NCBI RefSeq assembly: GCF_001187505.1
Contig: NZ_CP012150.1
Coordinates: forward strand, 7,040,048-7,104,047
Length of the DNA: 64,000 nucleotides
Origin: Mycolicibacterium goodii
GTDB taxonomy: Bacteria; Actinomycetota; Actinomycetes; Mycobacteriales; Mycobacteriaceae
Direction: 5' to 3'
Every line of letters begins with the position of its first letter. Position 1 is the stretch's first letter. This document shows, in pieces, positions 918 to 5,530 of this stretch. The notes below the pieces were generated by a model. That model was given only the letters and a program-made list of their open reading frames with translations, ran no database searches and was not told the origin of the DNA. Position numbers and translations under genes: made by a program.

Positions 918-974
918 GTGGCAGGTGCAGGATTCGAACCTGCTTAGGCGTAAGCTGACGGATTTACAGTCCGC
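918..974 (-). repeat. Duplicated 3' end of tRNA-Tyr (attachment-site remnant)
   Basis: These 57 bases match the 3' part of the intact tRNA-Tyr (5447-5503) at 55 positions, covering the anticodon loop (GTA on the minus strand), the variable arm, the T arm and the acceptor end. The two differences are cttagg against cgtagg and agctga against agccga. The 5' half of the tRNA is absent, so this is not a working tRNA. It marks the far end of an element that integrated into the tRNA 3' end; the differences suggest an old insertion. Confidence 0.85.
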
Positions 975-1259
975 CCGTGTTGGCGTTTGTTTTGTTGGTG
1001 TGCAACGACGTGTAGGAAAACCGGCAGGTCAGCGAGTTGGCGGCGTTGGTGTCCCGTATTCCGTCGCAGAACTATTGCGGGCGATCTGCGGGCGATCCAG
1101 TGCACGGTGACCGCTCGGCAGCTCCGCGCACCACCTCCACTGCGGCATTGTCGCCAGCGTGTACCTTCATCCGGCCCGAAAAGGTTTAGTCAGACCCGGA
1201 GCCGCGGGCGTAGCGTTGGCCCGGCGTCCGACCCGAGAGATGAAGGAGGATGGCGAGTC

Positions 1260-1730
1260 GTGAATGCAGGTGAGGTCAGCCCAGAGCACAGCCGAAAGCT
1301 TGTCAGCGCTCTCACGGTTGCCCGGCGGGTATCAGATGAGCTCCAGCTGAAGTCGATGGTCCTCGGATACAACGTCATAGGCGAAGCTGGCATCAAGCTC
1401 GACCCGGGCGCTGATCCGTACATCGACTTCAGGGTCTGGCGAGTCGATCAGCATCAACAGACAGGCAGCGGACAGACGTTTTCGTCGGTCGACGAGGTCG
1501 AGACATACCTGACCTACCTCGCTAGCCTGCCCGTCTACTGTCTCGATTTGGTTGGCAACGTCGCCATGAAGATCGTCTCGGAGAACCACACGCCGTTCAC
1601 CGTCGTCACAGACCCCGTGACCGGCCACGAGTTCTACTTGCGGACGGTCGACCTGGAGACGATCCACCAGTTGCGCGTTCACAGCGACGAGCCGCCGCCC
1701 GTAGGAAATTGGTACCGCCTACCTGAGTGA
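1260..1730 (+). CDS. Unknown cargo protein, first gene of the element operon
   Basis: The GTG start at 1260 is chosen because a strong ribosome site (aaggagg, 1243-1249) lies at the right distance. The frame is open further upstream, but that part reads as arginine-rich noise. The 156-residue product begins VNAGEVSPEHSRKLV and has a helical, charged N-terminus, a mixed middle with many aromatic residues (YIDFRVWRVD) and the tail GNWYRLPE. It has no signal peptide or membrane segment and no recognised family. Its stop overlaps a possible GTG start of the next gene (GTGA, 1727-1730), so it is probably cotranscribed with the two HEPN-like genes. A role with them is inference from position only. 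Confidence 0.65.
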   Translation: MNAGEVSPEHSRKLVSALTVARRVSDELQLKSMVLGYNVIGEAGIKLDPGADPYIDFRVWRVDQHQQTGSGQTFSSVDEVETYLTYLASLPVYCLDLVGNVAMKIVSENHTPFTVVTDPVTGHEFYLRTVDLETIHQLRVHSDEPPPVGNWYRLPE

Positions 1731-1837
1731 CCAGCGGCAGACTACGGACGCGACACACTTCCGCGTCCAGCGAACTTTCCGGTGCCCGGCGTGTCCATCC
1801 GAGGACGTCGACTGGTCCGCCGATAGCGTCCGTGTTC

Positions 1838-2680
1838 ATGGCGGATGCCGAACGCAACCCCACCTACCTCCGCGACCTCGCCGGGCACGTCGCGGCCTTC
1901 CGCGACGCATTCAAGTCGTTCCTCGCACTGCACACGGACACCTACCGAGGGCCGGGCATGGGACTACTGCCCGCCGTGATGCCGTTAGACGGTTCCGATC
2001 CGGCCGAGGTTGATGAAGTCCGAGCCCGTGTGTCCGAGGCGGCGGGGCGTGCACGTCGGGCACCCGCCTTGACCGGTTGCGTGATCGGCGTCGTGAATCC
2101 GAACGGGCAACGGAACGTCGTGGACCCGATCGCGGCATGGCACACCGTCACGCAACCCAAACCAATGCTCGAACCGGCGAACATCATCGACGCGTGCAAC
2201 CAGATGATCGGCTCCCTCGGGGAAATGGCCGACCAGGCCGAAGCCGAGTTGCCGCCGACGGTCGACGTCGCCGAGATGCACCCGGCGGTGTGGGGTCAGG
2301 CCGCCCGGTTGTGGCGCGACGGCCACTATCGCCAGGCGGTATCTGCGGCCGCGGAAGGCGTGGTCGGGTTGGTGAAGTCGCGTACGGGACGACGGGACAT
2401 CGACGACACCTCGCAGTGGCAACAGGCGTTCTCCAAGGACGATCCCGAACCGGGCAAGCCGCGTCTCCGGTGGCCGAGCGACCAGACCGACAAGACCGTG
2501 ATCTCGATGAACAGCGGCCTACGCCAATTCGCGCCCGGCGCACAGATGACGATCCGCAATCCCGCCGCGCACGGACCCGGCGAACTGACCCAGCAGGAGG
2601 CCGTCGAACGGTTGTCAGTGCTCAGCTTGTTGGCGCGGTGGGTCGACCATTGCGACCTCATCGAAGCGCCCCGCACATGA
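1838..2680 (+). CDS. TIGR02391/Ymh-family protein with HEPN-like motif
   Basis: With the ATG at 1838 the product is 280 residues. The C-terminal 135 residues resemble the TIGR02391 (Ymh) family: MHPAVWGQAARLWRDGHY followed by a helix leading into the AV-A-A segment near residues 148-175, and RNPAAH at 240-245. R-x4-H is the signature spacing of HEPN ribonucleases, so RNA cleavage is possible but unproven. The N-terminal half (helical, residues 1-75) is not recognised. The frame is open back to a GTG at 1727 that overlaps the preceding stop; those 37 extra residues are Ser/Arg-rich and look non-coding. A TAGCGT at 1823-1828 could be a -10 for a leaderless message from 1838. The stop overlaps the next start (ATGA), indicating translational coupling. 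Confidence 0.7.
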   Translation: MADAERNPTYLRDLAGHVAAFRDAFKSFLALHTDTYRGPGMGLLPAVMPLDGSDPAEVDEVRARVSEAAGRARRAPALTGCVIGVVNPNGQRNVVDPIAAWHTVTQPKPMLEPANIIDACNQMIGSLGEMADQAEAELPPTVDVAEMHPAVWGQAARLWRDGHYRQAVSAAAEGVVGLVKSRTGRRDIDDTSQWQQAFSKDDPEPGKPRLRWPSDQTDKTVISMNSGLRQFAPGAQMTIRNPAAHGPGELTQQEAVERLSVLSLLARWVDHCDLIEAPRT

Positions 2681-3696
2681 TCCACACATGGCGGGTGAGT
2701 ACGCGACTGATCGTCCCCAAATATCGCGCCAACGAGCCCGCCGTGGGCGAAACCCTTGAGTTCGGGAGCCGCTTGCCCGTGCAAGCCAGAAAGTACGGGG
2801 GCATCCCTGTCGCCGTGCGAAAGCTGCCGGGCGAGACGCCGAAGATGTACCTATCAGATCAGGCACCGTCCGTCCCAGATCAGTCGCGAGAGATCGTCGA
2901 ACTTGTCGCTGATGTCCAGGTTCCGGCTAAAGAGCATTCGTTTACTGATGCGATAGAGCGATACAGTCCCGTATTCGGAGCCGTGATCGACCTCTTAGCT
3001 TTCGATATGGCGGCCGTGCCGGAGGTCGCAGGTGTGGAGATGGTCGACATCTCACCGCCCGTTTCGGTCGGGGACGAACGCACCGCCCATCGTTTCTCGT
3101 CACCCCCGTTCGACCGCTACATGCGATCTCAAGAGATGCTCTCGATCGAAGGTCGTCAGCTCGGTGTACTTCCAGAGTCCATCGACCTCGATTCCAAGAC
3201 GTCGGCCGCTCTCCGCTGGTTCGTGAAAGCTCTAGGCACGGACGTATTGCACGACCAATTCATCTTCCTGTGGATCGCGCTGGAAATCCTTTGCGGGATG
3301 ACTCCGAGCATTAGCGTTGAGCAAACCTATCGGGCGCGGTGTGGGCATGAGATACCGGAATGCCCTGAGTGTGGGAAGTCCACAGCGAAAAAGGTCGAGG
3401 GGTCCACCAAGAAGGCGTTTCTGCAAAGCTACGGGGTGCCCACGGACAAGACCGACGAGCTTTGGCGGATGCGTCAAATGATGCACGGCGCAATCAGCTT
3501 CGATTCAAAGCGGGTCGAGGGGCTCAGTCATCTCGTCCCACCACTGCGAGCCGTCGTCGCAACGGATCTCAAGAAGCGGCTGTCTTCAGACTGGCCCTTG
3601 GTTGCGCTACAGGCCGGGTACATCATGCACCCGGCGATCGCATTCGGCGGCTCTCGGCCAGTCACGGCCGACGAGATCAGCCCTCTGATGGCGTAG
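2677..3696 (+). CDS. HEPN-like protein with embedded zinc ribbon (ApeA-like)
   Basis: The ATG at 2677 overlaps the upstream TGA by four bases. The 339-residue product has an N-terminal beta-rich region (residues 1-150) of unknown kind. A C-terminal helical region follows with FLWIALEILCG (197-207), a zinc-ribbon-like insert (C222, H224, C229, C232 in CGHEIPECPEC) and ELWRMRQMMHG (261-271). R264/R266 with H270 gives an R-x3/5-H motif, the arrangement seen in ApeA-type HEPN domains of antiphage proteins. The family assignment is by motif and architecture only. Coupling to the Ymh-type gene suggests the two products act together. There is no membrane segment, so it is likely cytoplasmic. Confidence 0.65.
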   Translation: MIHTWRVSTRLIVPKYRANEPAVGETLEFGSRLPVQARKYGGIPVAVRKLPGETPKMYLSDQAPSVPDQSREIVELVADVQVPAKEHSFTDAIERYSPVFGAVIDLLAFDMAAVPEVAGVEMVDISPPVSVGDERTAHRFSSPPFDRYMRSQEMLSIEGRQLGVLPESIDLDSKTSAALRWFVKALGTDVLHDQFIFLWIALEILCGMTPSISVEQTYRARCGHEIPECPECGKSTAKKVEGSTKKAFLQSYGVPTDKTDELWRMRQMMHGAISFDSKRVEGLSHLVPPLRAVVATDLKKRLSSDWPLVALQAGYIMHPAIAFGGSRPVTADEISPLMA

Positions 3697-4228
3697 ACCG
3701 GCGGACCGCCGAGTCTGGTTGCGGCGCAACCACACCCGTCGCGGCCAACGCCCGTCGATCGTCCACGTCGGGCCGCGGCCGCCGAATTTTTGGGCCGCGC
3801 AATAAAAAACCGTGACTACCGCGGGCGGAAGTCACCCGCACCCCCCTACCCAACATTCTCGGGGGTGGGGTCCGGCACCGGTCCGCTCTCCCGTGGCGGG
3901 TGGCCAGGCGACCACAGACGGGCCGCTCGACGTCGAAGCCCGACAAGGACACGCCTCGCCGCCGCTCGGCCGCCCACGGCCAGCCAGGGCCGCGAGAACC
4001 GGGCGCGCGCCGACGATCGCGGTGTGTTGCGCTCGGTCGCGGCTGCGGCACGCCGCTCGACGTCGCGTCGCGGGATGGCCTGTTGGTGGTCGCGGTGATC
4101 CCGGCGCGCACGAAAGAAACCCGCCGGGATCACCGCGCCGCTGCCGGGCATGGAGGTTGCCCGTCGCCGAACCCGGCGCGCGGTCCGAGGGTGGGTCGCC
4201 CGCCCCATCCCCCCGGAGGTCTAGCGGA
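3697..4228. other. Gene-poor part of the element
   Basis: These 532 bases are very GC-rich. All frames give arginine/proline-rich, non-protein-like translations, so I see no gene. The stretch contains a short inverted repeat (cgcggcc 3774-3780 with ggccgcg 3793-3799) just after the cargo operon and a stronger hairpin at 4091-4137. It is probably decayed phage DNA. Confidence 0.45.
4091..4137. terminator. Strong hairpin, 16-bp perfect stem
   Basis: The arms cgcggtgatcccggcg (4091-4106) and its exact complement (4122-4137) enclose a 15-base loop rich in A. It lies beyond the minus-strand phage-gene fragment, so it could terminate that transcript. It could also close the plus-strand cargo operon, which ends about 400 bases earlier. 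No U-tract is present. Confidence 0.45.
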
Positions 4229-4441
4229 TCAGTAGAACCAACCCGATTCGGCGCGGTCGCCGTTCGCGGTGTCGGCGGCGTGCCCAACCTCCGACATGGG
4301 CACCGCGGTCTCGGCGGGCACGGCGGCGAGCACGTCCGCCATGCCCGGATCGGCGGTGATCAGTTCGACCCAATGCTTGCGGCGGGCTGGGGTGATCTTG
4401 CCCTTGGTCACCGCTTCGTCGACGGCGGCCTCGACGTTCGC
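4229..4441 (-). pseudogene. C-terminal half of a phage protease/scaffold gene
   Basis: On the minus strand, from about 4441 down to a stop at 4229, the translation contains VEAAVDEAVTKGKITPARR, a WVELITADPGMADVL segment and ETAVPMSEVGH. This resembles the C-terminal scaffold region of Mu-I-like phage proteases of actinobacterial phages. The frame can be opened at 4492, but the first 18 residues do not fit the family. The matching middle part of such a protein is found on the opposite strand next to it (4492-4710). The two pieces are head to head, so the gene has been broken and one half inverted. Recognition is from remembered family sequences only. Confidence 0.5.
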
Positions 4442-4491
4442 TGCGAAGAAGATCACCGGCCTAAGCGGATAGCCAGAAGGGCACGGACACA

Positions 4492-4710
4492 ATGACTTTC
4501 ACCGATGAACAGATCGCGGCGTTGCTCGAAACCCTCGGACTACCGGCCGACACCGACGACCCTCAACTCGTCGTCGACACCGTGGCCGACCTCGCCGCCC
4601 AGGCGGTTGGGATGAACCCCGAACAGCCGTCGACGGTGGCCGCGGCCGCACGTCGGCACGGCCTCGAACTCGTCGACCACGACACCCACGAGGCGCTCAA
4701 GCGCGATGCG
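4492..4710 (+). pseudogene. Middle part of a phage protease/scaffold gene
   Basis: The translation from ATG 4492 (MTFTDEQIAALLETLGLP, then a segment ending in EALKRDAA near residue 72) resembles the acidic helical segment that precedes the C-terminal scaffold region in Mu-I-like phage proteases. After residue 72 the frame runs into proline/serine-rich noise because it overlaps the integrase remnant in another frame. The continuation expected here lies inverted at 4229-4441. A separate small intact gene is possible but less likely, since the homologous half sits next to it. Confidence 0.45.
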
Positions 4711-5430
4711 GCGATCTTGCGGCCTTCGGCGGGCCCGCCAACCCCGCCGACGGCATGGACCTACCCCGCCTCCCCGAGACCGAGCAGCGGTACCTCACGC
4801 ACGACCAACTCCACCGCGTCGCCGTCGCGTCCGGCCACCTCCGCACCCTCGTCCTCCTGCTCGGTTATTGCGGCCTGCGGTTCGGCGAAGCGGCGGCGCT
4901 ACAGGTTGCCGATGTCGACGTGACCGCGCGCCGGATTCGGGTCCGCCGATCGGTGACGTACGTCCGCAAGACCGGGCTGGTGGAGGGTCCGACGAAGAAT
5001 TACAGCAGCCGGACGGTGCCGGTGCCCGCGTTCGTCGCCCGTCTGCTGGCAACCGAGATCGCGGACCGTGATGGGTCGGCATTGGTGTTCACGTCGGCGC
5101 GCGGCGGCGGATACCTCACCCTCGGCCAAGCGCGGTACACGTTCCAGAAGGCGACGGCGGCGGTCGAGGGATGCGACGGCGTGCGCCTGCACGATCTGCG
5201 GCACACGTGCGCGTCGTTGGCGATCAGCGCGGGCGCGAACGTGAAGGTGGTGCAACGGCTGCTCGGGGCACAAGACCGCGGTGCTCACCCTCGACCGATA
5301 CGGGCACCTGTTCCCGGACGACCTCGACGCCGCGGCCGACGCTTTCGACGCCGCCGCGGAATCTACTGCGGGCGGCCTGCGGGCGGTCGTGTCCAGCGAC
5401 GCAATCAGGCCCGCCGAAAAGCGGGCCTGA
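4710..5430 (+). pseudogene. Tyrosine integrase, N-truncated and frameshifted
   Basis: The remnant carries the catalytic domain of a phage-type tyrosine recombinase. It includes NPADGMDLPRLPETEQRYLT at the domain linker, YCGLRFGEAA with the first catalytic Arg, and LHDLRHTCASLAI with the H-x2-R box. The N-terminal arm- and core-binding domains are missing. After RLLG an extra G in the run at 5265-5268 shifts the frame. The shifted frame continues correctly as HKTAVLTLDRYGHLFPDD, holding the last catalytic His and the nucleophilic Tyr, to a TGA at 5428-5430. The gene ends 17 bases from the attachment repeat and faces tRNA-Tyr. An assembly error could explain the one-base shift but not the missing N-terminus. 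Confidence 0.8.
5406..5429. terminator. Hairpin at the integrase end
   Basis: A perfect 9-bp stem (caggcccgc with gcgggcctg) with a CGAAAA loop overlaps the last codons of the integrase and lies just downstream of the minus-strand tRNA-Tyr. It can end transcription in both directions. It resembles the hairpin at 888-911, so the element brought a replacement terminator along with its tRNA end. Confidence 0.55.
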
Positions 5431-5447
5431 ACTGCGACATCACGGAG

Positions 5448-5530
5448 TGGCAGGTGCAGGATTCGAACCTGCGTAGGCGTAAGCCGACGGATTTACAGTC
5501 CGCTCCCATTGGCCGCTCGGGCAACCTGCC
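5448..5530 (-). tRNA. tRNA-Tyr (anticodon GTA)
   Basis: Read on the minus strand, the 83-base gene has the acceptor stem GGCAGGT/ACCTGCC, a D arm, the anticodon loop CTGTAAA with GTA, a long variable arm typical of tRNA-Tyr (class II), the T arm GCAGG-TTCGAAT-CCTGC and a discriminator A at 5448. CCA is not encoded. Its 3' end is duplicated at 918-974, and the 57-bp repeat 5447-5503 is the attachment site of the adjoining element. It is divergent from yajQ, with about 108 bases between them. Confidence 0.95.

Follow-up and report, generated by a model that had tools for sequence, protein, structure and literature searches.

The window analysed here is a 64,000-nucleotide stretch of Mycolicibacterium goodii (NZ_CP012150.1, positions 7,040,048 to 7,104,047); in the numbering of this genome, a single contig of 7.1 Mb, it falls close to one end. 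An element of 4529 bp (918-5446) is inserted at a tRNA-Tyr gene in this window. Of its phage genes only broken head-protease and integrase sequences remain, and three genes are intact on the forward strand, named here P1 (1260..1730), P2 (1838..2680), and P3 (2677..3696). A sequence-only reading had described these as a three-gene operon encoding two HEPN-like proteins, carried as cargo of a dead tRNA-integrated element. Whilst our analysis supports the two HEPN-like proteins, their position as cargo, and the three open genes, for each of which the actual frame outscores the other five, P1 is probably outside the unit. This unit appears to consist of P2, a Ymh-type HEPN protein, and P3, a putative HEPN-like protein lying in a slot that an unrelated protein occupies in a homologous element.

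P2 (280 aa) comprises an N-terminal domain and a C-terminal Ymh-type HEPN domain (residues ~146-271) bearing the motif R240-N-x3-H245. The protein matches the Pfam family Hypoth_Ymh (PF09509; E 2.5e-24, 85.9 bits against a cut-off of 25) and TIGR02391 (E 2.4e-12, 47 bits against a cut-off of 39.45), with R240, N241, and H245 invariant in all 51 rows of an alignment composed of P2 itself and 50 relatives picked among the best 120 of 456. In the predicted model (predicted local distance difference test score 86.6, predicted template modelling score 0.57), a helix spanning residues 219-240 ends at R240 and is followed by a loop containing H245 and a last helix at 252-271, as expected for a HEPN motif. 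P2 therefore combines the two marks of the Ymh family, a profile match above the curated cut-off and an Rx4-6H motif before the last helix, and the earlier assignment of its C-terminus holds. Members of the P2 alignment also match the HEPN models of defence systems weakly. The named closest relatives among the matches listed belong to Mycobacterium and Mycolicibacterium, and a relative at E 1e-40 is present in 19 of the 396 genomes of a genus sample, its own included; no phage matches to P2 were found.

The start of P2 is placed at ATG 1838 rather than at 1727, with homologues aligning from this codon and the stretch 1727-1837 scoring as non-coding (-7.6, compared with +57.5 for the remainder of P2); the gene caller offers GTG 1832, two codons upstream, as an alternative. 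The sequence TAGCGT-N8-ATGG (1824..1841, forward strand), likely a -10 element and leaderless start, is kept in the window and in the three closest of the loci compared (L041, L042, and L043) although the spacer has diverged. The pattern TANNNT-N8-start precedes only 3 of the 153 called genes of nine sequences, namely P2 of L043, P2 of L044, and a protease gene beside P2 in L043, a count from which P2 of the window, L041, and L042 were left out as their called starts lie a few codons further upstream. Leaderless starts are one of the mycobacterial start types, and the signal at P2 looks like one of these. A sigma-70 consensus site was not found in 980-4300. Upstream of the -10 element, a CGGCRTGTC block (window ~1786-1795) occupies the same place in L041, L042, and L043, and is a possible operator.

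P3 (339 aa) overlaps P2 by 4 nt (ATGA), as the sequence-only reading had noted, and consists of a beta-rich N-terminal domain (residues 1-155) followed by a HEPN-like helical domain (about 163-308). Alignment and model place a zinc ribbon (C222, H224, C229, and C232) between helices 191-207 and 241-251 of the latter domain, and a motif R266-Q-M-M-H270 (Rx3H) lies in the same domain. The P3 family comprises 139 proteins at E 0.001 or better, P3 included, and in an alignment of 68 rows, its own among them, R266, Q267, and H270 are invariant (68/68), with C229 and C232 present in every row, H224 in 67, and C222 in 56. The zinc ribbon and the x3 form of the R-x3/5-H motif proposed earlier are thus conserved, whereas the x5 form is not, position 264 being arginine in 25 of the 68 rows. 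The Rx4-6H spacing is typical, but not universal, of the HEPN superfamily, and because the Rx3H of P3 is one residue short of it we class the protein as HEPN-like.

The predicted model of P3 is confident, and the best structural matches of its helical domain are HEPN ribonucleases, with weak Z scores; those of the N-terminal domain are weak and mixed, and nothing is drawn from them. P3 itself has no match in Pfam, NCBIfam, PHROGs, or PADLOC, and among the 68 family members there are no matches at E 0.1 to the HEPN models of Pfam and PADLOC, or to any other PADLOC model. Two of the 68 match the RelB antitoxin (best E 0.031), which is taken as chance. By sequence, no solved structure was found for P1, P2, or P3, with all matches listed at E 0.34 or worse. 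P3 is not visibly a diverged P2, with the two profiles unlike one another (hhalign probability 0.2%). Taken together, the alignment and model suggest that P3 is best explained as a member of an undescribed family, a second HEPN-like protein with an embedded zinc ribbon.

The P3 gene has no matches in public-genome contig scans, viral contigs, plasmids, or phages, and it occurs solely in its own genome among overlapping sets of 301, 394, and 198 genomes, and in none of 19 P2-carrying genomes. A second-codon test for ATGA coupling is compatible in 5 of the 6 relatives closest to P3 and in 36 of the remaining 113, compared with 6 of 120 P2 relatives, and is a weak test because the six closest relatives have a common N-terminal sequence. 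The possibility of a terminator downstream of P3 was rejected on its fold z-score (-1.57; -0.12 for L041).

The closest P2 locus found, L041, encodes a P2 that is 91% identical and lies in a satellite-like element of 10.2 kb between perfect 44-bp repeats, with genes for a capsid, scaffold, protease, replication-initiation-like protein, and integrase. Window 1824-2670 matches L041 9129-9975 at 86% (blastn), after which the similarity breaks off, to return at window 3694-3738 against L041 10523-10567 (36/45 identical, 80%, E 1.5e-4). The resumed match begins directly after the stop of P3 in the window and directly after that of another gene in L041, which encodes a protein designated TM from its hydrophobic start, judged by eye to be an apparent membrane helix. 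As similarity stops after P2 and returns after the stops of P3 and the TM gene, P3 fills the slot of the TM protein in a homologous element. Beyond the cargo, protease remnants at 4247-4441 keep the order of L041, with those at 4439-4601 inverted, and upstream of 1824 the two sequences are unalignable except for a short block (49% over 44 nt). The partner of P2 appears from these alignments to have been swapped, with either order of P3 and the TM protein in the slot compatible.

The neighbourhoods of P2 elsewhere were examined in 35 further distinct loci (29 in whole genomes, reaching down to 27% identity, five drawn from 51 matching plasmid records, and one from a viral contig); eight of the 29 genome loci were taken with long flanks and the others with ~1.5 kb or less. 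A TM protein adjoins P2 with a 4-nt overlap in 6 of the 35 (L005/L043, L006/L047, L019/L041, L020/L042, L036, and L037), with a weak match (31%) near P2 in a seventh (L013), and all three loci whose P2 is at least 80% identical carry it. The TM protein is unrelated to P3 and lacks a recognised enzyme or antitoxin family; in both of the plasmid records matching it, the match overlaps a P2 relative, and it has no matches in viral contigs. No called gene overlaps P2 in L035, L038, L039, L040, L044, and L046. The Ymh-HEPN gene hence appears, from these arrangements, to take exchangeable downstream partners. P3 was found in none of the 35 loci with the flanks covered (tblastn, E 1e-4), nor was P1, and the proposed fixed trio of sensor, ribonuclease, and third partner is not borne out; homologues are scattered without their neighbours as far as the trio is concerned, but not for a module of P2 plus an exchangeable partner.

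Several further features of these loci were observed. In L042 (3891-5120) and L043 (10360-11586) the P2-TM pair is directly preceded by a trypsin-like protease gene, next to which lies an integrase-like gene, with a tRNA-Val close by; the protease gene of L043 has a TAGCGT-N8-start signal like that of P2, and given this same signal the two may be regulated together. In L036 and L037, from Rhodococcus plasmids, the pair has a common gene neighbourhood, which includes genes whose products are annotated as DprA and NYN-domain proteins. A second P2 subfamily (L007, L008, and L022-L033; 41-43% identical, frames of ~295 aa) is present in many mycobacterial genomes, with a small gene upstream and a convergent gene of ~430 aa in the contexts L045 and L046.

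P1, a 156-aa orphan preceded by the strong Shine-Dalgarno-like GAAGGAGG, is separated from P2 by 107 nt because P2 starts at 1838, as indicated by the homologue starts, the non-coding stretch 1727-1837, and the shared TAGCGT-N8-ATGG, and the GTGA overlap once read between the two genes falls away. A word-based search of 5.8 billion proteins found a single relative of P1, with no matches in viral contigs, plasmids, or phages, and among 301 genomes only P1 itself. The three-gene operon is rejected on this gap and the lack of co-occurrence, and P1 is best explained as a bystander or as an accessory gained separately. The G+C content of P1 (0.60) and P3 (0.59), in contrast to that of P2 (0.67), hints at different recent histories.

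At either end of the element lies a copy of the 3' part of tRNA-Tyr, forming a 67-bp direct repeat; the diverged left copy (918..984, no strand assigned) is identical at 61 of 67 positions to 5447-5513, within the intact tRNA-Tyr (GTA) that forms the right attachment site (5447..5530, reverse strand; tRNA call and repeat comparison). Amongst five fetched relatives (L061-L065), two have an empty site (L064 and L065), their left flanks continuing directly from window 880 and 876 into the tRNA and a YajQ-like gene, and in L062 and L063 the left-side match is confined to the tRNA part. Along with the fragmentary phage genes, this repeat and these empty sites bear out the earlier description of a decayed tRNA-integrated element. 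The remains comprise head-maturation-protease remnants (4229..4601, no single strand), in which 4247-4441 and 4439-4601 match L041 in opposite orientations, and a tyrosine integrase fragment (4755..5360, forward strand), which retains the C-terminal catalytic part and lacks the N-terminal half, with similarity in this frame stopping near residue 172 at a frame break judged by eye.

Candidate mycobacterial phage-inducible chromosomal islands (PICIs), in the part of the account available to us, are defined by an integrase plus a capsid and are related to phiRv1 and phiRv2 (PMC10654092). L041 possesses both genes, its capsid matching 163 phage records, all at <60% identity (20 listed at 37-39%), whereas the window has, in place of an integrase and major capsid, the integrase fragment, the protease remnants, and a match of no more than ~30 nt to the end of the L041 capsid gene. 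The element is best explained as a decayed capsid-bearing (PICI/phiRv2-like) satellite carrying P2-P3 as a cargo cassette. Window 1072-1104 (33 nt) resembles 5363-5395, the 3' end of the integrase fragment, at 79%, a possible trace of an earlier tandem element. A different 4-kb insertion with an integrase-like gene, judged by eye, is found at the same tRNA-Tyr in the relative G670 (L061, 5925-9535), where a Fic protein scores as SoFic (PADLOC E 1.5e-91) and another protein has a HELIH motif; going by this SoFic-type insertion, defence cargo may settle at this site repeatedly.

On the gene structure, the conserved motifs, the confident model of P3, the position of the pair as cargo, and the presence of P3 in the slot of another partner, we favour, with moderate confidence, a two-gene P2-P3 unit acting as a ribonuclease-based abortive-infection module. 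The overlapping genes would be translationally coupled, and the N-terminal domains and zinc ribbon would either restrain the HEPN active sites or detect a phage product, with activation allowing the paired HEPN domains to cut RNA and so stop growth of the infected cell. HEPN domains typically function as dimers according to the accessible text of the report on Tha (PMC11087260), and by analogy a P2-P3 heterodimer is possible. The membrane proteins of known defence systems are believed to be cell-suicide effectors, as far as the available part of one study describes them (PMC9122126), a role in keeping with the TM partner found at the sister loci.

Some observations weigh against reading these frames as genes. 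An antisense frame of P1 also scores above zero (12.7, compared with 33.5 for its own frame) and was favoured over P1 by the initial gene call, whilst whole-length open frames arise in 66, 54, and 1 of 2000 shuffles for P1, P2, and P3 respectively, making openness alone poor evidence in this DNA. Maintenance of the cargo by selection once the element had died, as proposed earlier, is plausible, and retention fits a module useful to its host, however recent decay fits the data equally; the ratio of nonsynonymous to synonymous substitution of P2 against its 91% identical relative (0.10; 0.058/0.584) spans the time before and after decay, and cannot be divided between them. That P2 and P3 are mere passengers, not yet broken and of no current function, would suit a dead element, the P1 and P2 shuffle counts, and the G+C of P3 at codon position 3 (0.71, compared with 0.97 in the host gene nearby), as might be seen in a gene acquired recently. 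Yet all three frames are intact amid fragmented phage genes, as are the putative catalytic residues and zinc ligands, and we regard this as improbable.

A catalytically dead HEPN-like fold in P3, serving to regulate or adapt P2 as the sole enzyme cutting RNA, would explain the Rx3H spacing and the occupation of the same slot in relatives by a protein of no recognised enzyme family; the invariance of R266, Q267, and H270 suggests more than structure, however, leaving this role somewhat doubtful. Two genes overlapping at stop and start on a mobile element could also be a toxin-antitoxin or addiction module, with either P2 or P3 a HEPN toxin, the other its antidote, and the pair stabilising the element, and HEPN toxins are common in such pairs in the part of the source available (PMC7641770). 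An obligatory antidote is hard to reconcile with six loci in which P2 lacks an overlapping partner and with two unrelated partners elsewhere, no antitoxin or nucleotidyltransferase family is recognised in P3 or the TM protein, and P3 keeps an apparent catalytic motif of its own. Neither P1 nor P3 matches a Pfam nucleotidyltransferase family, as a HEPN-MNT toxin-antitoxin system would demand, and an addiction module seems unlikely.

Extending the abortive-infection reading, we more speculatively propose a combinatorial immune module, in which a Ymh-HEPN gene, constant and provided with a start signal of its own, precedes a slot for unrelated partners, either membrane-anchored or zinc-ribbon HEPN-like. 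P2-P3 would then be a phage-activated hetero-HEPN ribonuclease combining an Rx4H with an Rx3H half-site, spread by capsid-forming satellites; on present evidence this is rather unlikely as a whole. The P3 family, with its distinctive Rx3H, embedded zinc ribbon, and lack of any library model found by P3, is a candidate new HEPN class. The exchange of P3 and the TM protein beside the same Ymh-HEPN gene could help to separate constant from exchangeable parts of HEPN-based immunity, and the finding links mycobacterial PICI-like elements to candidate defence cargo.

A literature search with most subscription journals outside it returned no mention of TIGR02391, nor of 'RX3H' with HEPN, and no description of such a HEPN and zinc-ribbon pair in titles or the starts of abstracts. 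Ymh is listed as a HEPN family with a conserved Rx4-6H, occurring as solos and fusions and in restriction-modification contexts (PMC3710099), and P2 shares its C-terminal domain and RNx3H motif; the N-terminal domain of P2 and the overlapping, exchangeable partners go unmentioned in the available part of that account. ApeA, in the same partial source, has a mostly beta N-terminal region followed by HEPN, as in P3, however the N-terminal domain of P3 is about half the 300 aa of ApeA-NTD1, and P3 has the embedded zinc ribbon (PMC3710099).

P2 alone has the plan of Tha, a prophage-encoded Staphylococcus aureus defence protein of 301 aa in which an N-terminal part of unknown nature precedes a HEPN domain at the C-terminus, and both reside on mobile phage-type elements. 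Tha is described in the accessible text as a phage-triggered, non-specific ribonuclease with an abortive-infection-like action, its HEPN domain having structural matches that include 5yep and Csm6 (PMC11087260). It differs in its motif (R265NSIMH270, Rx4H) and its tail-protein trigger, with neither a zinc ribbon nor a HEPN partner mentioned in that text (PMC11087260); to this plan the P2-P3 pair would bring a further HEPN-like half, equipped with a zinc ribbon. The HEPN-TM system of phage-inducible islands (Fillol-Salom 2022, via the available part of PMC11087260) resembles the P2-TM loci by description in pairing HEPN with a membrane protein on a satellite, whereas the window has a HEPN-like partner in place of the TM protein. 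Finally, the compact integrase-plus-capsid plan of the mycobacterial PICIs, as given in the part of PMC10654092 available, fits L041, and the window appears to be the ruin of such an element, distinguished by a cargo consisting of a Ymh-HEPN pair.
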